From the NCBI RefSeq assembly GCF_030286555.1, contig NZ_JASVWF010000002.1:1-64000 (forward strand): a stretch of DNA of 64,000 nucleotides. Reading direction: 5' to 3'. The position numbers and the translations under genes are program-made. The notes beneath the pieces were generated by a model that saw only the letters and a program-made list of their open reading frames with translations, had not been told where the DNA came from and did no database searches. Positions 47,774-64,000 of this stretch are shown here, piece after piece (the stretch's first letter is position 1; each line of letters starts with the position of its first letter). Source of the stretch: Actinomycetospora termitidis (GTDB lineage Bacteria; Actinomycetota; Actinomycetes; Mycobacteriales; Pseudonocardiaceae).

Positions 47774-47819
47774 CAGGTGAGCACTTCGCGGGCCCAGAGG
47801 CCCTCGAAGTGCTCACCTG
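47774..47819. terminator. Hairpin between the GlxA-like and ureohydrolase genes
   Basis: Perfect 15-bp arms (CAGGTGAGCACTTCG and its complement) plus five more pairs after one mismatch, loop CAGA. It follows the stop of the GlxA-like gene by one base and precedes the ureohydrolase start. The bases CAGGTGAGCAC are shared with the 52-bp palindrome at 61499. Confidence 0.7.
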
Positions 47820-54770: not shown

Positions 54771-55768
54771 TGAGCCGGTACGCCGTGCTGGGCGCGGGGT
54801 CGTGGGGCACCACCTTCGCCAAGGTGCTGGCCGACGCGGGCACCGACGTCGTGCTCTGGGCGCGCCGCCCGGAGGTCGCGGACGCCATCACGACCGATCA
54901 CGTCAACGCGGAGTACCTGCCCGACGTCAAGCTCCCGACGTCGCTGCGGGCGACGCACGACGCCGGGGCCGCCCTCGACGGCGTCACGACGGTCGTCCTC
55001 GCCATCCCCGCCCAGAAGCTGCGCGAGCACCTGGAGGACTGGGCCGGGAGCCTGCCCCGCGGTGCCACGGTCGTCAGCCTGGCCAAGGGCGTCGAGATGG
55101 GCACCCTCAAGCGCATGAGCGAGGTGGTCGCGGACGCGGGTCGCGTCGACCCGGAGCGCATCGCGGTGCTCTCCGGCCCGAACCTCGCCGGCGAGATCGC
55201 CGCCGAGCAGCCCACGGCCACCGTCGTCGCGTGCACCGACCACGACCGGGCGGTCGCGGTCCAGCACGAGTGCTCCACCCGGTACTTCAAGCCCTACACC
55301 AACGTCGACGTCATCGGCTGCGAGCTGGGCGGGGCGTGCAAGAACGTCATCGCGCTCGCCTGCGGGATGGCGTCCGGGCAGGGCTACGGGGACAACACGA
55401 CCGCCTCGCTGATCACGCGCGGGCTCGCCGAGATCTCCCGGCTGACCGTGGCCCTCGGCGGGCAGGCGATCACACTCGCGGGCCTGGCCGGGATGGGCGA
55501 CCTGGTGGCCACCTGCTCCTCGCCGCTCTCGCGGAACCGGCGCTTCGGCGAGTCCCTCGGCCGGGGGCTCTCCGTGGCCGAGGCCGAGGAGGCCAACCAC
55601 GGGCAGGTCGCCGAGGGCGTGAAGTCGTGCGAGGCCATCGGCGAGCTCGCCCGCCGCGCCGGGGTGGACACGCCCATCGTGGACGCGGTCCGCAGAGTGT
55701 GCGCCGGCTCCGTCTCGGCCCGCGACGTGGGCGACGAGCTGATCAACCGGGAGCGCAAGCCGGAGTAG
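54770..55768 (+). CDS. gpsA: Glycerol-3-phosphate dehydrogenase [NAD(P)+]
   Basis: GpsA, 332 residues. It reduces dihydroxyacetone phosphate to sn-glycerol-3-phosphate for membrane lipids. The NAD motif is [19 protein letters not shown]; other landmarks are [37 protein letters not shown] (catalytic Lys) and [23 protein letters not shown]. The ATG overlaps the acyltransferase stop. In Mycobacterium ddl follows directly; here an ATPase, a flavoprotein and a MocR regulator gene are inserted first. Confidence 0.96.
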
Positions 55769-55827
55769 TCCCGGAGACCACCGCCCACACGCGTTTCACG
55801 TGGGGCGCGGCGGGAACTCCGGATTCC

Positions 55828-56274
55828 GTGGACGTGCTGCAGCGGATGGGACCCCCTCCCCGCCTGACCGCCGACCGCCCGGTGGTCTCGTTGGAGCGCT
55901 GCGGCCCGGCCACCCGGACGGACGCCTCGTCGATCCGCCGGTCGTTCCGGGCCTGGATCGCCGAGTGGGCCGACGCGGACACCGCGGACGACCTCGCGCT
56001 CGCCGTCTACGAGGCCCTCGCCAACGTGGTCGACCACGCCTACGCGACCGCCGACGGCCCGGGCCAGATGCGCCTCTGGGCCGCCGTGTCCCCGCCGCTG
56101 TTCGGCGGTCGCGAGCTCGTCGTGACCGTCTCCGACGACGGGGCATGGCGCCGCTCCACCGGCCGTGGCTGGCGCGGCCGGGGCCTGCCGCTGATGCACA
56201 CCCTCACCCGCGCGACCGTGCTCTGCGGGCCGGGCGGGACCACGGTGCAGATGCGGAGCCGGGTCTCGCCGTAG
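55828..56274 (+). CDS. RsbW-like ATP-binding protein (HATPase)
   Basis: Small GHKL-type ATPase of about 148 residues resembling anti-sigma factor kinases of the RsbW/SpoIIAB type. The N box is AVYEALANVVDHAY, the G1 box VSDDGAW and the G2 box GRGLPLMHTL. The start is uncertain: GTG 55828 or ATG 55845, neither with a good ribosome binding site. Neither an anti-anti-sigma factor nor a sigma factor gene is adjacent, so the partner must be elsewhere. It follows gpsA by 59 bases and may be read from that transcript. Confidence 0.78.
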   Translation: MDVLQRMGPPPRLTADRPVVSLERCGPATRTDASSIRRSFRAWIAEWADADTADDLALAVYEALANVVDHAYATADGPGQMRLWAAVSPPLFGGRELVVTVSDDGAWRRSTGRGWRGRGLPLMHTLTRATVLCGPGGTTVQMRSRVSP

Positions 56275-56286
56275 CGCCGCCCGACG

Positions 56287-56931
56287 TCAGGCGCGACGCC
56301 GCTCGCGCACGTGCTCCGGGACCGCCACGTCCGCCGGGAGCGCCGGGCACGTCTCGGGCTCGCCGAGAACCGTCGTGATGGGCACCACGCCGGCCCAGCG
56401 GCGGTCGCCCTGTGCCACCCGCTCGGGGTCGCCGGGCGGTCCCTGCCGCACCTTGACGCTGGCCTCGGCGAGGTCGAGCGCGAGGACGGCGGTCGCGGCG
56501 CTCTCCTTGCGGTCCGGTCGTGCCGCGTGGTCCCACTGGCCCGGGGTGAGGTGCTCGACGATCGCCTCGAGCGCCCGGAGCTGTTCCGCGGGGTCGGTGA
56601 CCCGCCGGGCGCGGCCGCGGACGACCGCGCTGCGGTAGTTGGCCGAGTGGTTGAACACCGACCGCGCGAGGACGAGCCCGTCGAGCAGGGTGACGGTGAG
56701 GCAGACCTCCCGGTCGAGCGCCAGGCTCGCGGCGCCGCTGGACCCGTGGACGTAGACGACGTCGGCCACCCGCGCGTGCATCGTCGGCAGCACCAGCGGG
56801 GCGCCGTCGGGGTCGACCAGTCCCAGGTGACACACCAGTGCCTCGTCGAGGATCGCGTGCAGGCTCGTCGGGTCGGTCTGCTGCCGGTCGCGCTTGCGCC
56901 GCAGCTCTGTCCGCGGGGTCGGGGAGAGCAT
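56287..56931 (-). CDS. PNPOx-family flavin-binding protein
   Basis: Split-barrel flavoprotein of the pyridoxamine 5'-phosphate oxidase superfamily (MSMEG-type group), 214 residues. Family text: HLGLVDPDGAPLVLPTMHARV, VYVHGSSGAASL, TLLDGLVLARSVFNHSANYRSAVVRGRARRV and DPAEQLRALEAIVEHL. Members bind FMN, and some take part in vitamin B6 metabolism. The divergent gene is a MocR/PdxR-like regulator, so a B6-linked role is plausible. ATG 56931. Its 3' end meets the convergent ATPase gene with 12 bases between. Confidence 0.83.
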   Translation of the reverse strand: MLSPTPRTELRRKRDRQQTDPTSLHAILDEALVCHLGLVDPDGAPLVLPTMHARVADVVYVHGSSGAASLALDREVCLTVTLLDGLVLARSVFNHSANYRSAVVRGRARRVTDPAEQLRALEAIVEHLTPGQWDHAARPDRKESAATAVLALDLAEASVKVRQGPPGDPERVAQGDRRWAGVVPITTVLGEPETCPALPADVAVPEHVRERRRA

Positions 56932-56952
56932 GCGCCCAGCATCGCCGCCCGC

Positions 56953-56999
56953 AGTGGCATCCTGCGAGGGCCACTTCTCGGCCGTTCCAGGAGGCCACT
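56953..56999. promoter_or_regulatory. Candidate MocR/PdxR binding region
   Basis: AGTGGC at 56953 is inverted relative to GGCCACT at 56969 and 56993, giving one inverted and one direct repeat 24 bases apart. MocR regulators often bind such mixed repeats. The last copy overlaps the AGGAGG (56989-56994) of the regulator gene. Confidence 0.4.
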
Positions 57000-57000
57000 C

Positions 57001-58446
57001 GTGTTCGTCGCGCTCGACCGGGCGTCGTCCACCCCGCTGGCGGTCCAGGTCGCGGCCGGGATGCGGGCGGCGGCCCTGGACGGTCGCCTCCGTGCCGGCG
57101 ACCGGGTCCCCGCGACCCGGACGCTCGCCCGCGACCTGGGCGTGAGCCGGACCGTCGCCGCGGCCGCCTACGACCAGCTCGTCGCCGAGGGCTGGCTGGG
57201 CGCCCGCCACGGGTCGGGGACGTTCGTGCTGGCCGCACCCCCGTCCCCACCTGTCAGCACTGCGGCCATGCTGACGCCGGGCGGCACAGATGCCCCCACG
57301 ACGACCGACCTGCGCCCCGGCGCGCCCTGCCTGGAGGTCCTCGATCCGGCCTCCTGGCGTCGGGCGTGGCGCCGGGTCGGCGACCTGGTGCCGTCGGAGC
57401 GCCCCGAGTACGCCGGGGTGCCGGCGTTCCGGGAGGCGATCGCCGAGCACCTGCTGCGCCACCGCGGGCTGGTCGGCGCGGACGTCCTCGCCACGGCGGG
57501 TACGACGACCGGGTTCGCCGAGATCGTCGCGGTCCTCACGCGGCGCCTCGGACGGCCGGTGCGCGCCGGGATCGAGGACCCGGGCTACCGGCGCGCCGCC
57601 GGCGTGCTGCGCGCGGCGGGCGCCGAGGTGACCGGCCTCGCGGTGGACGCGGACGGACTCGTCGTCGGGAACGCGCCGTCCGGCCTGGACCTGGTCTACG
57701 TGACGCCCGCGCACCAGTACCCCCTGGGCGGGCGGCTGCCGATGACGCGGCGGGCGGCGCTGGTCGAGCGGGCCCGGTCCGAGGGGTTCCTGGTGGTCGA
57801 GGACGACTACGACGGCGAGCTGCGCTACGACGTCGCGCCCCTGCCGGTGCTCGCCGCGCTGGCCCCCGACGTCGTCGTCCACCTCGGCACCGCGGGCAAG
57901 ATCGCGACGCCGACCCTCGGCGTCGGCTGGCTCGTGGCCCCGCCCGCGCTCACCGCCGACCTGCTCGCCCTCCGCGCCGCCACGGGCACCCGCCCGGCCC
58001 CGGCGGGCCAGCTCGTGTTCGCCGCGTGGGTGCACGACGGCGGGTTGGGTCGGCACCTCACGCGGCTGCGCCGCGAGCTCGCCGTGCGGCGCTCGCTGGT
58101 GGTGGACGCAGTGCGCGCGGCGGGGCACGAGGTCCTCGGAGACCGGGCCGGCGCGCACCTGGTGGTGCCGCTGGGATCGGCGGCGGCCGAGCGGGCGGCG
58201 GTGGACGCGGCGGCCGAGGTGGGGGTGCGGGTCGACGGGCTGGCGCAGCACCGTCTCGACGATGTGGAGTCACTGCCACTGGATTTGACAGCAGATTCGA
58301 CCGAGCACGCCGATAGGGCTTTGCTGTCACGACCACAGGTGCACGGGATCCTCGTCGGCTGGGCCGCCCCCACGCGCGCGGAGCTGGAGCACGCGCTGAC
58401 CCGGCTCGGGGGCGTGCTGGCCGGGACGGGCGTCACCCCCGCGTAG
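57001..58446 (+). CDS. MocR/PdxR-family regulator (GntR HTH plus aminotransferase domain)
   Basis: Regulator of 481 residues. A GntR winged helix (residues about 10-76: [47 protein letters not shown]) is joined by a linker to a type I aminotransferase-like domain. The PLP-binding Lys is in GTAGKIATP and the cofactor Asp/Tyr are in [11 protein letters not shown]. Such proteins sense PLP or aminated ligands. The divergent PNPOx-like gene is the likely target. Two palindromic insertions sit in frame: residues 85-92 in the linker, and 58286-58329 near the C-terminus, the latter with unusually AT-rich codons. GTG 57001 follows AGGAGG by six bases. Confidence 0.87.
57253..57275. repeat. 23-bp palindromic element, copy 3 (inside CDS, inverted)
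   Basis: Reverse complement of the GTCAGCATGGCCGCA..GCTGAC element, one base different from copy 1. It encodes VSTAAMLT (residues 85-92) in the linker between the two domains of the MocR-like regulator. Confidence 0.7.
58286..58329. repeat. Intragenic 44-bp inverted repeat
   Basis: TGACAGCA and TGCTGTCA, 8-bp perfect arms 28 bases apart, inside the 3' part of the MocR-like gene. The stretch contains codons such as TTG, ACA and ATA-like neighbours, poorer in GC than the gene around it. Confidence 0.45.
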
Positions 58447-58449
58447 GCT
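58444..58449 (+). promoter_or_regulatory. Putative -10 box of ddl, leaderless
   Basis: TAGGCT overlapping the stop codon of the preceding gene and eight bases before the ddl ATG at 58458. Confidence 0.4.
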
Positions 58450-58457
58450 CCGGCCGC

Positions 58458-59555
58458 ATGGGAACCGCACGCCCGACGTTGCTGGTCCTGTTCGGCGGGC
58501 GGTCGGGGGAGCACTCCGTGTCGTGCGTCTCCGCCGGCGGCATCCTGGACAACCTGGACCGCGAGCGCTTCGACGTCGTCGCGGTCGGGATCACCGAGGA
58601 CGGCCAGTGGCTCGCCGTCGGCGACGACACCACACCCTGGCGCCTGCACGGCCGTGAGCTGCCCCGGGTGACGGAGGCCGCGGGCGACCCGGTCGCGCTG
58701 CTGCCCGACCCGACCCGGCGCGAGCTGATCAGTCTCGCCGACGGCCGTCGCGGCGAGACCCTCGCCCGGATCGACGCCGTCTTCCCGGTCCTGCACGGCC
58801 CGGCGGGCGAGGACGGCGAGATCCAGGGGCTGCTGGAGACGGCCGGGATCCCCTATGTCGGCGCCGGGGTGTGTGCGAGCGCGGCGTCCATGGACAAGGT
58901 CGTCACGAAGCGGATCCTGCGCGACGCCGGGCTCGCGACGGGCGACGCCGTCGCCCTCGACCGCAGCGCGACCGACCTCGAGCCCGCCGACCGCGAGCGC
59001 CTGGGCCTGCCGGTGTTCGTGAAGCCCTCACGCGCCGGGTCGTCGGTGGGAATCTCGCGGGTCACGGCGTGGGAGGACGTGCCGGCGGCGATCGCGTTCG
59101 CGCGGCGGAGCGACCCGAAGGTGCTGGTGGAGGCCGGCATCGCGGGGCGCGAGGTGGAGTGCGGGGTGCTCCAGTTCCCCGACGGCCGCGTCGAGGCGAG
59201 CGTGCCCGCCGAGATCCGGCTGACCGGCGACGCCGACTGGTACGACTTCGACACCAAGTACCTCGACGACGCCTGCGAGCTGGACGTCCCGGCCAAGCTC
59301 GACGACGCCGTGGCGGAGGCGGTCCGCGAGCAGGCGGTCCGGGTGTTCCGGACGATGGACTGCGCCGGGCTCGCCCGGGTGGACTTCTTCGTCACCGACG
59401 ACGGCCGGGTGCTGGTCAACGAGCTCAACACCATGCCGGGCTTCACGGCGACGTCGCTCTACCCGCGGATGTGGGCGACGACGGGCGTCGACTACCCGGC
59501 GCTGCTCACCACGCTGGTCGAGACCGCGCTGGCCGGCGGCACCGGGGTCCGCTGA
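58458..59555 (+). CDS. ddl: D-alanine--D-alanine ligase
   Basis: Ddl, 365 residues, ATP-grasp enzyme that makes the D-Ala-D-Ala end of the peptidoglycan precursor. Motifs: [74 protein letters not shown] and the metal-binding [19 protein letters not shown]. Glu in SGEHSVS is kept, and the substrate loop ends in a Tyr-containing form ([12 protein letters not shown]), indicating D-Ala rather than D-lactate. ATG 58458. Its stop is directly adjacent to that of the convergent DUF3515 gene. Confidence 0.95.
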
Positions 59556-60155
59556 TCAGCGGGTGGGGGTCGGGGCCGGCGTCGTGTCCCGGCTGACCAG
59601 CGTGATCTTGACGCCCCGGGACACGTCCTGGATCGCGCCGCTGCCGATGCCGTCGGGCAGCGTCAGTCCGACGAAGACCGCGCGGTCCGCCGTCACCCAC
59701 GTCGTCGCGCCGGCGCCCGGGATGCGGAGCCAGTCGACGCCGTCCACGTCGAGCAGCGGCGCCGTCGGGCCCAGCTCGACCGGAGCCGCCAGGCCGCAGC
59801 GCAGCACGACCGCCTGGTCCTCCGCCCGCCCCGACGCGGCCTTCTCGCCGCCCCAGGCGACGGTGCCGGGCGGTGCCGGGTTCGCGAGCACCCGGCGCGG
59901 CAGCAGCCCGTCCCCGGTGTTGATCTCCTGCGGGAGTCCCGAGAGCAGCCGCGCGCAGTCCGCCGACGCGGCCGCCGGCACGGGGACGGCCGCGACGGCG
60001 AGCGGGCCGGTGTCCGGGTCGGGGTCGGTCTGCCGACCCAGGATCTGGGACGCGACCAGCACCCCGACCACGAGCAGCACCGGCAACGCCAGGGCGACGC
60101 CCAGCAGGATGCGGGGGAGACGGCGGTCGAGCTCCGGTGCTCGGGAGGGGGCCAC
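59556..60155 (-). CDS. DUF3515 family membrane-anchored protein
   Basis: DUF3515 protein, 199 residues. An N-terminal Arg-rich cytoplasmic stub is followed by one membrane helix (about 16-37) and an extracytoplasmic domain. That domain has a paired-Cys pattern (ADCARLLSGLP and VVLRCGLAAP) and family text VAWGG, VDGVDWLRIP and TWVTADRAVFVGLTLPD. Function is unknown; it is conserved between ddl and thiL in actinobacteria, which suggests a cell-envelope role. It is followed by nothing on its strand; the Lrp-like gene lies seven bases upstream and is probably in the same transcript. Confidence 0.87.
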   Translation of the reverse strand: MAPSRAPELDRRLPRILLGVALALPVLLVVGVLVASQILGRQTDPDPDTGPLAVAAVPVPAAASADCARLLSGLPQEINTGDGLLPRRVLANPAPPGTVAWGGEKAASGRAEDQAVVLRCGLAAPVELGPTAPLLDVDGVDWLRIPGAGATTWVTADRAVFVGLTLPDGIGSGAIQDVSRGVKITLVSRDTTPAPTPTR

Positions 60156-60162
60156 CAGTGGG

Positions 60163-60399
60163 TCAGGCGGGCGAGCCGACGACCGGGCAGGTCAGCGTGC
60201 GGGTGATCCCGGGGACCTTCCGGACCGCGGTGACCGCGTCCGAGAGGTCGGCGTCGTCGTTGCGGTCCACGTGGACGATCACGTCGTAGGGCCCCGTCAC
60301 GTCCTCCGCACGCGTGACGCCGTCGATCCCGGCCACGTCCGATGCGACCGCGGCGGCGCGGCCCACCTCGGTCTGGATCAGGATGTAGGCCTGGACCAC
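60163..60399 (-). CDS. Lrp/AsnC ligand-binding domain protein
   Basis: Stand-alone RAM (Lrp C-terminal) domain, 78 residues. It has a ferredoxin-like fold pattern (VQAYILIQTEVGRAAAVASDV and GPYDVIVHVDRNDDADLSDAV) without a DNA-binding helix-turn-helix. Such proteins may bind amino acids and modulate full Lrp regulators. GTG 60399 is supported by AGGAGG a few bases upstream; longer readings add a Pro/Arg-rich stretch. It lies between thiL (divergent) and DUF3515, the standard actinobacterial order. Confidence 0.88.
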   Translation of the reverse strand: MVQAYILIQTEVGRAAAVASDVAGIDGVTRAEDVTGPYDVIVHVDRNDDADLSDAVTAVRKVPGITRTLTCPVVGSPA

Positions 60400-60497
60400 G
60401 AACGGGCCTCCTCGGGGAGCGGGTGCACCCGCTCGGCGGACGAGGGGACGCACACGGGTGACACGACGGCTGGGAACGTACCGCAGGGAGCAGACGG

Positions 60498-61508
60498 GTG
60501 AGGCGGTCGGGAGACGCAGCGAACGGCGCCGCGACGCGCGGCCCGGCGGCCGGCGGACGGGTGTCCGACCTCGGCGAGTTCGGCGTCATCGACCGCATCA
60601 CGTCCGGTCGGCCGCAGCCCGAGGGAACGCTGCTCGGCCCGGGTGACGACGCGGCCGTCCTCGCCGCCCCGGACGGCCGGGTCGTGGCGACGGTGGACAC
60701 CCTCGTGCAGGGCGTGCACTTCCGCCTGGACTGGTCGGGCCCCGAACAGGTCGGCCGCAAGGCGGTCGCGGCGAACCTCGCGGACATCGCCGCGATGGGG
60801 GCGGTCCCGACGGGGCTGCTGCTCTCCCTGGCCTGCCCGGCCTCGACGCCGACCGACGTGGTCGACGGGCTCGCCGCCGGGATCTGGGACGCGGCGGCCG
60901 AGGCGGGCGTCGGCGTGGTGGGCGGCGACACGGTCTCGGCCGACCAGATCGTGGTCTCGATCACCGCGCTGGGCGACCTCGAGGGCCGCGACCCGGTCCG
61001 GCGCTCGGGGGCGAAGGTGGGGGACGTCGTCGCGGTGTGCGGGGTGCTCGGCTGGTCGGCCGCGGGCATGGAGGTCCTGCGGCGGGGCTTCCGCTCGCCG
61101 GTCGCGATGGTCGCCGCGCACCGGACCCCGCGGCCCCCGGTGGCGCAGGGACCGGTCGCGGCCCGCGCCGGCGCGACCGCGATGGTCGACACCTCCGACG
61201 GCCTGCTCGCCGACCTCGGCCACGTCGCCGAGGCCTCGCGGGTGCGCATCGACATCCGCTCGGCGCTGGTCCCGGTGGCCGACAAGTTGCGCGACGTGGC
61301 CTCCGCCCTCGGCGGCGACGCCCTGCGCTGGGCCCTCACCGGGGGCGAGGACCACTCCCTCGTCGCCTGCTTCCCCGACGAGTCCGTGGTCCCGGAGGGC
61401 TGGACGGTGTTCGCCGACTGCCGCCTGGGCACCGGGGTCAGCGTCGACGCCGACCGGTGGGGCGGCGCCGGCGATCCCGGCTGGCGGCACTGGGCCTCCG
61501 GCAGGTGA
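60498..61508 (+). CDS. thiL: Thiamine-monophosphate kinase
   Basis: ThiL, 336 residues from GTG 60498 (GTG 60561 would give 315). It phosphorylates thiamine monophosphate to the active cofactor. Motifs: LGEFGVIDRITS, LLGPGDDAAVLA, the VDTLVQGVHFRLDW segment, AANLADIAAMGAVPTGLLLSL, VGGDTVSAD and TGGEDHSLVACFP. The cofactor serves enzymes in this window too (acetolactate synthase, transketolase). Its last two codons and stop lie within the perfect 52-bp palindrome shared with glcF. Confidence 0.93.
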   Translation: MRRSGDAANGAATRGPAAGGRVSDLGEFGVIDRITSGRPQPEGTLLGPGDDAAVLAAPDGRVVATVDTLVQGVHFRLDWSGPEQVGRKAVAANLADIAAMGAVPTGLLLSLACPASTPTDVVDGLAAGIWDAAAEAGVGVVGGDTVSADQIVVSITALGDLEGRDPVRRSGAKVGDVVAVCGVLGWSAAGMEVLRRGFRSPVAMVAAHRTPRPPVAQGPVAARAGATAMVDTSDGLLADLGHVAEASRVRIDIRSALVPVADKLRDVASALGGDALRWALTGGEDHSLVACFPDESVVPEGWTVFADCRLGTGVSVDADRWGGAGDPGWRHWASGR

Positions 61509-61550
61509 GCACCTGTTGTCGCCATGGCGACAACAGGTGCTCACCTGCCG
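61499..61550. terminator. Perfect 52-bp palindrome spanning both convergent stops
   Basis: Every base from 61499 to 61550 pairs around the centre 61524/61525 (core GTCGCCATGGCGAC). It contains the last codons GGC AGG TGA of thiL and, on the other strand, the same GGC AGG TGA of glcF. It should act as a bidirectional terminator. CAGGTGAGCAC is shared with the hairpin at 47774. Confidence 0.8.
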
Positions 61551-62944
61551 ACGGGCACACCCCGGATGGACGCGTCCAGCACCTGCACGGGGTGGAACAT
61601 CGGCAGCTCGCCCTCCAGGTACTTGCGGATCTGGAGCAGGCATCCCGGATTCGCCGTGACCAGCAGGTCGGCGCCGGTGCCGCGGATGTTGTCGGCCTTG
61701 CGGCGCCCGAGATCGCCGGCGGCCTCGGGCTGGAGCATGTTGTAGATCCCGGCCGAGCCGCAGCAGATCTCCGCCTCCGGCAGCTCGGCGAGTTCGAGGC
61801 CCGGGATCGACCGCAGCACGTCCCGCGGCTGCGCCCGGATCTTCTGGGCGTGCCCGAGGTGGCAGGCGTCGTGGTAGACGACCGTCGCGTCGATCCGGTG
61901 CCGCGGCGCCCGGGACTCCTCCAGCGCGTCCGCGAGCACCTCGGAGACGTCCCGGACCTTCGCGGAGAACGCCGCGGCCCGCTCGGACCACTGCGGGTCG
62001 TCCGCGAGGAGCTCGCCGTACTCCTTCATCGACGACCCGCACCCGGCGACGTTCACGGCGATCACGTCGACGTCGGCCCGCTCGAAGACGGCGATCAGCG
62101 CCTTCGCCCGCTCGGCCGACTCCTCCTCGCGCCCTGCGTGCAGCCCGAGCGCACCGCAGCACGCCTGTTCCCGCGGCGCGATCACGTCGTAGCCCTCGGC
62201 GGCGAGCACCCGCGTCGTCGCGAGGTTGACCTGGTGGAAGAAGACGTCCTGCACGCAGCCGGTGAGCATGCCGACGCGACCGCGCGGCGTCCCGGCGGCC
62301 GACGTGATCGCCGGCGTGCTCGCGAACGCGTCGCGGACGCTGACCGGCGGGAGCAGCGACTCCATCGCGACGAGGCGCTCGAGGCGCTTCGGGAGCCTGG
62401 CGAGCAGCCGGTCCATCGAGCGCGGGCGCAGCTTCTGGTAGAGCGCGCCGCCCAGCGAGGCCGCCCGCAGCCGTCGTCGGTACGGGAAGAGCGTGAAGAC
62501 CGCCTCGCGGAACAGCCGGTCGGCCCGGCTGCGCGGGACGTGGCGCTCGATCTGCGGCCGGGTGGCCTCGAGCAGCCGGTCGTACTGCACGCCGGACGGG
62601 CAGGCCGTCACGCACGCCATGCACCCGAGGCAGCGGTCGATGTGCGTGGTGAAGGCGCCCTCGAGCGGGATCTCGCCCTTCTCGGCCATCTCCATGAGGT
62701 AGATGCGCCCGCGCGGGGAGTCCATCTCCTCGCCCCACAGCGCGTACGTGGGGCAGGTGGGCAGGCAGAAGCCGCAGTGCACGCAGTCGTCGAGCAGCTC
62801 GCGGGCGGGCGGGTGGTGGTCGTCGAAGCTGCCGTGGGCGGCGGCGGCCAGGGCGTCGGTCCGCTCCGGGGGAGCCTCCTCCCCGCGCTGCGAGGTGAAG
62901 TCGGGTCCGGGGCCGGTGGGGCCCGTGGTGGGCGTACTGGTCAC
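61541..62944 (-). CDS. glcF: Glycolate oxidase iron-sulfur subunit
   Basis: GlcF, 467 residues. It carries electrons from glycolate (or lactate) oxidation to the respiratory chain with GlcD and GlcE. Two [4Fe-4S] motifs, CVHCGFCLPTCPTY and CLGCMACVTACPSG, are followed by two CCG domains (QACCGALGLHAGR and ICCGSAGIYN) of the heterodisulfide-reductase type. The N-terminal 45 residues are a polar, low-complexity extension. GTG 62944 overlaps the glcE stop (GTGA). Its end lies in the 52-bp palindrome. Confidence 0.9.
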   Translation of the reverse strand: MTSTPTTGPTGPGPDFTSQRGEEAPPERTDALAAAAHGSFDDHHPPARELLDDCVHCGFCLPTCPTYALWGEEMDSPRGRIYLMEMAEKGEIPLEGAFTTHIDRCLGCMACVTACPSGVQYDRLLEATRPQIERHVPRSRADRLFREAVFTLFPYRRRLRAASLGGALYQKLRPRSMDRLLARLPKRLERLVAMESLLPPVSVRDAFASTPAITSAAGTPRGRVGMLTGCVQDVFFHQVNLATTRVLAAEGYDVIAPREQACCGALGLHAGREEESAERAKALIAVFERADVDVIAVNVAGCGSSMKEYGELLADDPQWSERAAAFSAKVRDVSEVLADALEESRAPRHRIDATVVYHDACHLGHAQKIRAQPRDVLRSIPGLELAELPEAEICCGSAGIYNMLQPEAAGDLGRRKADNIRGTGADLLVTANPGCLLQIRKYLEGELPMFHPVQVLDASIRGVPVGR

Positions 62945-64000
62945 GCGGGGACTCCTGTGGTGGTGGGCAGCCAGGGGGCGAGCCGTCCGCGCCCGAGGCG
63001 GTGGTCGGGGTCCAGGGAGGCGGCGACGGCCCGGAGCAGGACGGCGCTCGACGGGGTCGGGCCGAACGCGGGCAGCTCGACGCCGGCGGGACGCGCGCGC
63101 AGCGTCGACGTGCCGCCCGCCGCCGCGACCCGGGTGTGCGCGGTGTCGACCGCGGCGGGCTCGGCCGGGACGGTCAGGGTCGCGACGCCGGTGGCGGGCG
63201 CGGCCGTCACGCCCGTGGCGCCCACCTCGGCGGCGAGGTCGGCCAGCACCCCGCCCAGCCGGGTCGGTGCCACCCCGATCCGCAGGACCGCACGGTCGGT
63301 GGGCCGGGTGTCGACGGCGGCGCGGTGCGCGGCCCAGGCGGCCTGGGCGTCGTCGGGGGAGAGGACCGTGGCCCCGCGCCCGACCAGCTCGACCAGGCGG
63401 TCGGCGCGTCCGGCGACCCCCGCCTCGGTGCCCTCGAGCAGGGCCAGCAGCCGCCCGTCGTGCCACTCCAGCGCGGTCGCCTCCACCGGGGTGTCGGTCA
63501 CCGCCCGCCCGGCCGTCTCCAGCTCTGCCGCGTCGGCCACCGGGACCGACACCGTCCGCGCGCCCGGCGGCACGGGGTGCAGCCGCAGCACGATCTCGGC
63601 GAGCACACCGAACGTGCCGTGGGCACCGTGCAGCAGCTTCGCGAGGTCGTAGCCCGCGACGTTCTTGATGACGTGGCCGCCGGCGCGCGCGACCGTGCCG
63701 TCGGCCAGCACCACCGTGACCCCGATGACGAGGTCGCGCAGCGAGCCGTACCCGAGCGCGAGCGGGCCCGCGTCCGCCGTCGCGAACAGGCCGCCGACGG
63801 TCGCGCCGCGCGACGCGCGGGCGGCGTCGAAGGCGACGCGCTGGCCGGTGGCGCCGACCGCGTCCTGCAGGTCCGTCAGGGGCGTCCCCGCCCCGACGGC
63901 GACGGTCATGTCGCCCGGGTTGTGGGTGATCACGCCGGAGAGTCCGGCCACCGAGACGGGCGTGGCGTCGGCGGCGACGGTCCCGGCCCAGTCGGCCGCG
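62941..64000 (-). CDS. glcE: Glycolate oxidase FAD-binding subunit (partial)
   Basis: GlcE-like flavoprotein, cut by the right edge; the frame stays open to base 64000. The visible 350 residues contain the FAD_binding_4 pattern (ITHNPGDMTVAVGAGTPLTDLQ, ATVGGLFATADAGPLALGYGSLRDLVIG, GGHVIKNVAGYDLAKLLHGAHGTFGVLAEI) and a short C-terminal domain. The N-terminal nucleotide loop is missing because it lies outside the window. It probably forms glcDEF with a glcD gene further upstream. Confidence 0.88.
   Translation of the reverse strand, partial: AADWAGTVAADATPVSVAGLSGVITHNPGDMTVAVGAGTPLTDLQDAVGATGQRVAFDAARASRGATVGGLFATADAGPLALGYGSLRDLVIGVTVVLADGTVARAGGHVIKNVAGYDLAKLLHGAHGTFGVLAEIVLRLHPVPPGARTVSVPVADAAELETAGRAVTDTPVEATALEWHDGRLLALLEGTEAGVAGRADRLVELVGRGATVLSPDDAQAAWAAHRAAVDTRPTDRAVLRIGVAPTRLGGVLADLAAEVGATGVTAAPATGVATLTVPAEPAAVDTAHTRVAAAGGTSTLRARPAGVELPAFGPTPSSAVLLRAVAASLDPDHRLGRGRLAPWLPTTTGVPA

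Follow-up and report, generated by a model that had tools for sequence, protein, structure and literature searches.

The perfect 52-bp palindrome shared by the convergent genes thiL and glcF of Actinomycetospora termitidis belongs to a REP-like family of gene-end elements that is dispersed in genomes of the genus Actinomycetospora, and the A. termitidis genome has ~63 copies of it. Comparison with the protein tails of relatives indicates that the element supplied the C-termini of both ThiL and GlcF. Our best explanation as a whole, to which we give a probability of roughly 0.55, is that such an element replaced both gene ends and forms in the mRNA a stable hairpin that would set or protect the 3' end.

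The window, that is, the whole stretch of DNA that we analysed, is 64,000 nucleotides long. Genes were called in it with a gene finder written for this analysis, a small codon-usage script, and Pfam domains support the gene names (AIRS for ThiL; CCG and 4Fe-4S domains for GlcF). A repeat search found the two arms of the palindrome (61499-61524 and 61525-61550, 26 nt each) to be 100% complementary with 0 nt between them. The codons GGC AGG TGA close both thiL (stop at 61506-61508, plus strand) and glcF (stop at 61541-61543, minus strand). The sequence, the reading frames and the repeat search thus confirm what the preliminary description had reported, a perfect palindrome inside which both genes end in the same three codons. 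At ~74% G+C, which gives a pairing chance of ~0.31, a perfect palindrome of 26 pairs is expected by chance ~1e-9 to 1e-8 times per 64 kb. The RNA fold of positions 61480-61569 reaches -66.2 kcal/mol (z = -8.6), and none of 200 shuffled sequences folded as well. The palindrome is flanked on each side by a small hairpin, and it forms the middle of the larger element that they make up together (Table 1).

Table 1. Coordinates of the element, its parts and the neighbouring genes in the window.
Feature	Position	Strand	Remarks
Perfect 52-bp palindrome	61499-61550		Element core plus 3 bp per side; repeat search
46-nt family core: 21-bp stem, 4-nt loop CATG (61523-61526)	61502-61547		Model R1, 74.5 bits on each strand
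GTGAG tag at the stem base	61505-61509	+	Contains the TGA stop of thiL
Mirror tag (CTCAC on +, GTGAG on -)	61540-61544	-	Contains the TGA stop of glcF
Left mini-hairpin GCC-TCC-GGC (outward on the minus strand: loop GGA)	61494-61502	+	Codes Ala-Ser-Gly of the ThiL tail; by eye and family statistics
Right mini-hairpin TGCC-GACG-GGCA	61546-61557	+	Minus-strand reading is part of the GlcF tail PVGR; by eye
thiL (AIRS family)	60561-61508	+	Gene-finder start at 60561; longest ORF from 60498
glcF-like gene (4Fe-4S and cysteine-rich CCG domains)	61541-62944	-	
Second family copy in the window	47774-47819		Between two tandem minus-strand genes; model R1

Searching the A. termitidis genome with a 171-bp query around the palindrome gave 69 matches, which correspond to 36 places. 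The alignment of these 36 copies was turned into a model, R1, which returned 125 rows over both strands, or ~63 copies, in the same genome; being trained on A. termitidis copies, the R1 census favours the core type of that genome. With the strict pattern GTGAGYA-N26-TRCTCAC, we counted 106 sites in genome G016 and 151 in genome G003, and the reversed control gave 0. R1 matches were present in all 18 genomes of the genus, from 7 to at least ~102 rows each, and different genomes carry differing sequences at one same junction. Perfect palindromes can be artefacts of assembly or sequencing (hairpin chimeras), and in view of these matches such an origin is extremely improbable here. A broader model, R2, built from 55 sequences, matched 65 of 200 genomes drawn from the taxonomic family, in 19 of 46 genera and with a patchy distribution. 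Four copies outside the genus (L059, L066, L069 and L300, one of them outside the taxonomic family) all follow a gene end.

Regarding possible carriers and known families, a 90-bp query found no match at E 0.01 among 72,556 plasmid and 50,697 phage records, and carriage by plasmids or phages was rejected on this basis. An Rfam-type scan of positions 55000-64000 gave 8 matches at E up to 1, all of them below the gathering threshold; seven of these fall at the palindrome, where they are of microRNA type. A known RNA family was rejected, since no Rfam score at the palindrome exceeds the gathering threshold. In the open-licence PMC literature, we found no description of a GTGAG gene-end family.

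A typical copy, flanked by two mini-hairpins, has a 4-nt loop and a 21-bp stem in which the GTGAG base is nearly fixed and the inner part covaries. GTGAG stands against CTCAC in all 36 copies recovered by likeness to the thiL-glcF copy, while one side reads GTGTG in two of the 63 A. termitidis copies (L079 and L093). Covariation in the 36 copies, which were found by sequence likeness alone, amounts to 41 double-change cells vs 13 in shuffles. The genus-wide figure (211 cells vs 68 shuffled) is inflated, as 32 of its 55 rows were chosen for tag and pairing; the former is the fairer one, its rows having been found by likeness and not by pairing. Mini-hairpin stems of at least 4 bp are present on 135 of 192 arms (96 copies), compared with about one tenth of random windows. 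Among 103 triloop mini-hairpins, the loop read outward is GNA in 85 and its complement TNC in 10, and 98 have C as the closing base. Loops of the GNA type with a C-G closing pair are unusually stable. Within a copy, the two mini-hairpins frequently have unlike stem sequences, each of them still being self-complementary.

The copies concentrate where genes end. In A. termitidis, 33 of the 63 are convergent and 25 tandem (58/63 together), 2 are divergent and 3 are called inside a gene. The second copy in the window separates a galactose-oxidase-like (GlxA) gene from an arginase-family gene, and the predicted start of the latter falls in an arm of the element. We also examined three syntenic 400-kb blocks from three species, where 42 exact-tag members are distributed over 25 convergent, 17 tandem and 0 divergent junctions, out of 209, 709 and 207, respectively; the excess at convergent junctions relative to the rest is significant (Fisher p = 1e-8). 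Since block members were selected for the tag and for 14 or more paired positions out of 21, the invariance of the tag among them is built in. When one mismatch was allowed, 1 of 179 divergent junctions had a family member. Of 89 gene 3' ends up to 200 bp from A. termitidis copies, 47 are in the core stem (up to 23 bp from the centre), a further 40 lie 24-45 bp from the centre and 2 are more distant; at L026 and L027, one upstream gene end lies further off, outside this 200-bp count. In the blocks, 66 of 67 gene ends are within 45 bp of the element centre, 40 of these within 23 bp. Stops overlap 24 of 50 family stems in the blocks, as opposed to 1 of 36 other strong hairpins (p = 2e-6).

One could argue that the element acts as a signal at the DNA level (a protein-binding site, a DNA-uptake word or a chromosome-organising site) and not as an RNA hairpin. 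The near-fixed GTGAG tag and the symmetry are in line with this, GNA triloops occur in very stable DNA mini-hairpins, and the word GTGAGCA is about threefold over first-order expectation (57, 55 and 71 occurrences vs 20 in the three blocks). However, the inner stem varies with compensation, the avoidance of divergent junctions tracks transcription, and unpaired GTGAGCA is mostly coding, antisense to the gene, and intergenic just 2, 4 and 8 times in the three blocks. A DNA-level signal is therefore an unlikely explanation, and a DNA-uptake word in particular was set aside as unlikely, since single GTGAGCA copies track coding sequence. The DNA uptake sequences of Neisseria and Pasteurellaceae do offer a likeness, in that a short fixed word, paired in inverted orientation, gives rise to terminator hairpins (PMC1852404). 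The Actinomycetospora element differs from them in that its single words follow coding sequence, in its 21-bp stem with a variable inner part, and in having no U-tract.

According to the gene-finder calls, 33 A. termitidis genes stop at the TGA of the element's tag, with tails such as CAARR, VLRR and ASGR, and 28 of them end in Arg. The TGA of each GTGAG tag closes one of the three frames entering from its own side. Both thiL and glcF enter the element in that frame, and because the tag TGA closes it, their last codon or codons and their stops were replaced, as the comparison with relatives shows. Across 192 readings, the first frame is closed in 190 (165 of them at the GTGA stop), the second in 153 and the third in 71. 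All three frames are closed in just 60 of the 192, and a designed three-frame stop was consequently rejected.

We then compared by eye the tails encoded at filled and empty orthologous sites, 29 comparisons in which some sites and genes recur. When the stop lies in the core, the tails differ in 15 of 18 comparisons (one of them by a single residue), and when it lies 25-40 bp from the centre, the tail is unchanged in 10 of 11. These two outcomes suggest that a gene whose stop lies in the core usually owes its end to the element, and that margin copies mostly abut the old end. One repeat family can determine where proteins and messages end at many loci, as with the 33 A. termitidis genes and one TGA, and C-terminal tails such as CAARR or VLRR can here stem from a repeat and not from a protein family.

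For the thiL-glcF junction, the preliminary description had proposed either that an inserted element gave both genes new C-termini or that a terminator is under strong selection. The first proposal is supported by the relatives. ThiL ends in HWR in 17/17 of them vs HWASGR in A. termitidis. The GlcF tail, readable beside thiL in 14 of the 17, is RPPGM in seven, RPPEMG in six and RPPEMCAPRM in one (G004, which has its own element at that junction), while A. termitidis has PVGR. It is these differences that point to the element as the source of both C-termini. The refuting case named beforehand was that of relatives which lack the palindrome and still have the same C-termini and stops, and we found none among the 17.

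The closest relative by ThiL (G016, 94%) is without a strong hairpin at its thiL junction. G003 carries a family member at the thiL-glcF junction that stands between two unchanged stops, so the A. termitidis copy probably arrived, or was remade, separately from the G003 one. In both G003 and G014, the member at this junction has different borders and a different core. As these two species also carry a member there, the A. termitidis copy may be either a fresh arrival or an altered older copy. Counting hairpins with a score of 12 or more as strong, we found one at the thiL junction in 11 of 17 relatives, 7 with GTGAG and 4 with GTGCG. The GTGCG-based hairpin fills the thiL 3' junction in G005, G006, G010 and G007 (L105, L111, L108 and L106, respectively), and in the first three of these it starts GTGCGTGATCTTCT.

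In the mRNA of either gene, the element would fold into a very stable hairpin setting or protecting the 3' end. It may act as a bidirectional terminator without a U-tract or, as proposed for REPs, as a block to 3' exonucleases. A ribosome at the in-stem stop would hold the hairpin open, and folding should then await its release. In E. coli, ribosome stalling has been reported for REPs located within 15 nt of a stop (PMC12306157).

The second proposal, a terminator under strong selection, has weaker support than the first. The location at gene ends and the strong hairpins of 11/17 relatives agree with it; on the other side are the missing U-tract, the lack of substitutes and the 45 of 187 convergent junctions with a strong hairpin. 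The 10 nt that follow the core contain 0.6 T on average, none of 192 arms has four T in a row, and a terminator scan of 61300-61750 gave 0 terminator-like sites. Because the downstream arms are T-poor and the scan gave no match, a plain intrinsic terminator seems unlikely. Among the 187 convergent junctions examined, the 45 with a strong hairpin comprise 26 with a family member and 19 with another hairpin, and 142 have neither. When the element is absent in a relative, there is no other strong hairpin in 18 of 19 comparisons (~12 sites, some of them repeated). Since most convergent junctions do without a strong hairpin and substitutes are lacking in these comparisons, the element would be tolerated or mildly useful at gene ends, and not required there.

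A related possibility is that ordinary intrinsic terminators evolved in place between convergent genes, the likeness among copies reflecting a shared terminator design. The gene-end location, the very stable hairpin and the strong hairpins at the thiL junction of 11 relatives would be expected of them. Besides, intrinsic terminators of Streptomyces are likewise U-poor and form long, very stable hairpins in GC-rich actinobacteria (PMC12207403). The hairpins of those terminators are followed by 10 nt with 3-4 U, and the transcripts end at a median of 66-76 nt past the CDS (PMC12207403); in contrast, the corresponding 10 nt of the Actinomycetospora element have 0.6 T, and the core stem contains about half of the stops. 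U trails have been argued not to be necessary for termination (PMC8355165). An origin in place is nevertheless improbable: in addition to the absent U-tract, GTGAG is found in 36/36 copies and is not needed for stability alone, stops are inside the stem far more often than in other local hairpins (24/50 vs 1/36), and entire units are present or absent at orthologous sites.

One could also argue for a purely selfish or neutral REP-like repeat, which lands widely, survives at gene ends since insertion in genes or promoters is harmful, and has no RNA function. Such a repeat would account for the patchiness among close species without a substitute hairpin, for the 142 convergent junctions with neither kind of hairpin, and for core types that vary by species. 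It accounts less well for the upkeep of stem pairing and of the GNA loops, for the preference for convergent over tandem junctions, and for the strong hairpins at the thiL junction of 11 relatives, 4 of which have the other base, GTGCG. Templated repair of palindromes could itself keep stems paired. We see a functionless repeat as a genuine possibility, short of a probable one, and prefer the reading of a gene-end element with a hairpin that sets or protects the 3' end.

In order to place the element among known systems, we compared it with the REP, BIME and REPIN families of Pseudomonas and E. coli, which PMC3733652 describes as many-copy short palindromes downstream of genes, at convergent or tandem ORFs and often in inverted pairs. 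The Actinomycetospora element is alike in its many copies, its extragenic position near 3' ends and its convergent and tandem junctions. ORFs next to GTAG REPs are further reported to take their stop codon from the REP (PMC3733652). However, the Actinomycetospora tag is GTGAG within the stem and not GTAG at its end: we looked for GTAG or GGAG at the foot of a 20-40 bp palindrome, and the conserved tag found was the in-stem GTGAG. The tetranucleotides after the mini-hairpin (n = 175) are led by CATC (31), CACC (18) and ACCT (15), and CTAC is not among the 15 commonest. Unlike in REPs, two small GNA-loop hairpins flank one long stem; the mini-hairpins on 135/192 arms recall a REPIN-type inverted unit pair, yet they are joined by that stem.

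The RAYT of such REPs, a Y1/HUH transposase (PF01797), was found in 0 of 18 Actinomycetospora genomes (15 of them at least 90% complete), while 5 of 14 control genomes were positive. Given this result and the working controls, REP/RAYT membership was rejected. The element may work much like a REP dimer, minus two defining REP features, the GTAG tag and RAYT. CGTC REPs, some of which are inside ORFs, are likewise described as lacking a dedicated transposase (PMC3733652), and we found none for the Actinomycetospora element. Unlike CGTC REPs, it shows no CGTC-like conserved end in our position table, and its coding part is seen at C-termini, which sets it apart from Rickettsia palindromic elements as well as from CGTC REPs. 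The main text of PMC3733652 nowhere uses the words Actinobacteria, Streptomyces and Mycobacterium.

Whole units are present or absent at orthologous sites; at G003:225032, for example, G003 has a copy and G016 just a 2-bp gap. At the site that corresponds to the A. termitidis copy G000:219793, G016 retains the left mini-hairpin without the core, which looks like a loss. The longest flanking direct repeat among 96 copies is 11 bp, at G003:225032. Flanking direct repeats of at least 7 bp are found at 23 of the 96, compared with ~22 in shuffled flank pairs, and a MITE or transposon with target-site duplication was rejected, such repeats being no commoner than in controls. In A. termitidis, near 451 kb of C26 (L011, L218), the upstream gene ends in the element and a whole gene beside it is missing relative to G016 and G003. 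These two carry that one extra gene in between, and the element ends it, 1.4 kb further on. Insertion was rejected as the source of the CAARR tail at this site, since the element is also in G016 and G003 and the tail comes from loss of the intervening gene. Elements may also be endpoints of deletions.

Five species carry a member at the ribD junction, all of them at the same stop. The left mini-hairpins resemble one another and the host sequence that follows is the same, but each species has an inner stem of its own; the right mini-hairpins of four species are similar, and that of A. termitidis is different. G003 has two ribD-like genes (G003:C1:2729067 and G003:C1:622610; L202 and L217), each ending in its own element, and the two cores are different. 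Core types differ between species. The TTGTC core is found in 6 of 9 A. termitidis block members, 0 of 14 in G016 and 0 of 19 in G003, and also at one G015 site; the GGTCG core is found in 0, 11 and 8 block members of A. termitidis, G016 and G003, respectively. Mean core likeness is 0.64 for orthologous copies, 0.57 for random copies within a species and 0.48 for random copies between species (14 pairs). As orthologous cores are more alike than random pairs, core replacement would be partial.

Tentatively, and with clearly less confidence than in the gene-end reading itself, we propose that species-typical inner stems change in concert, both hairpin arms together and with local surroundings kept. 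The element would then belong to an unnamed actinobacterial gene-end class that spreads without a REP-type transposase, and genes would keep getting new tails and a 3' hairpin from a common pool. The driving process might be DNA repair or copying that runs across hairpins and is initiated by the folding of the GNA mini-hairpins. With no REP-spreading enzyme found, this REP-like system offers a clean case for how repeats multiply and why their stems differ by species. In one G003 block, at positions 223333-225032 (L289), three family copies lie within 1.7 kb.
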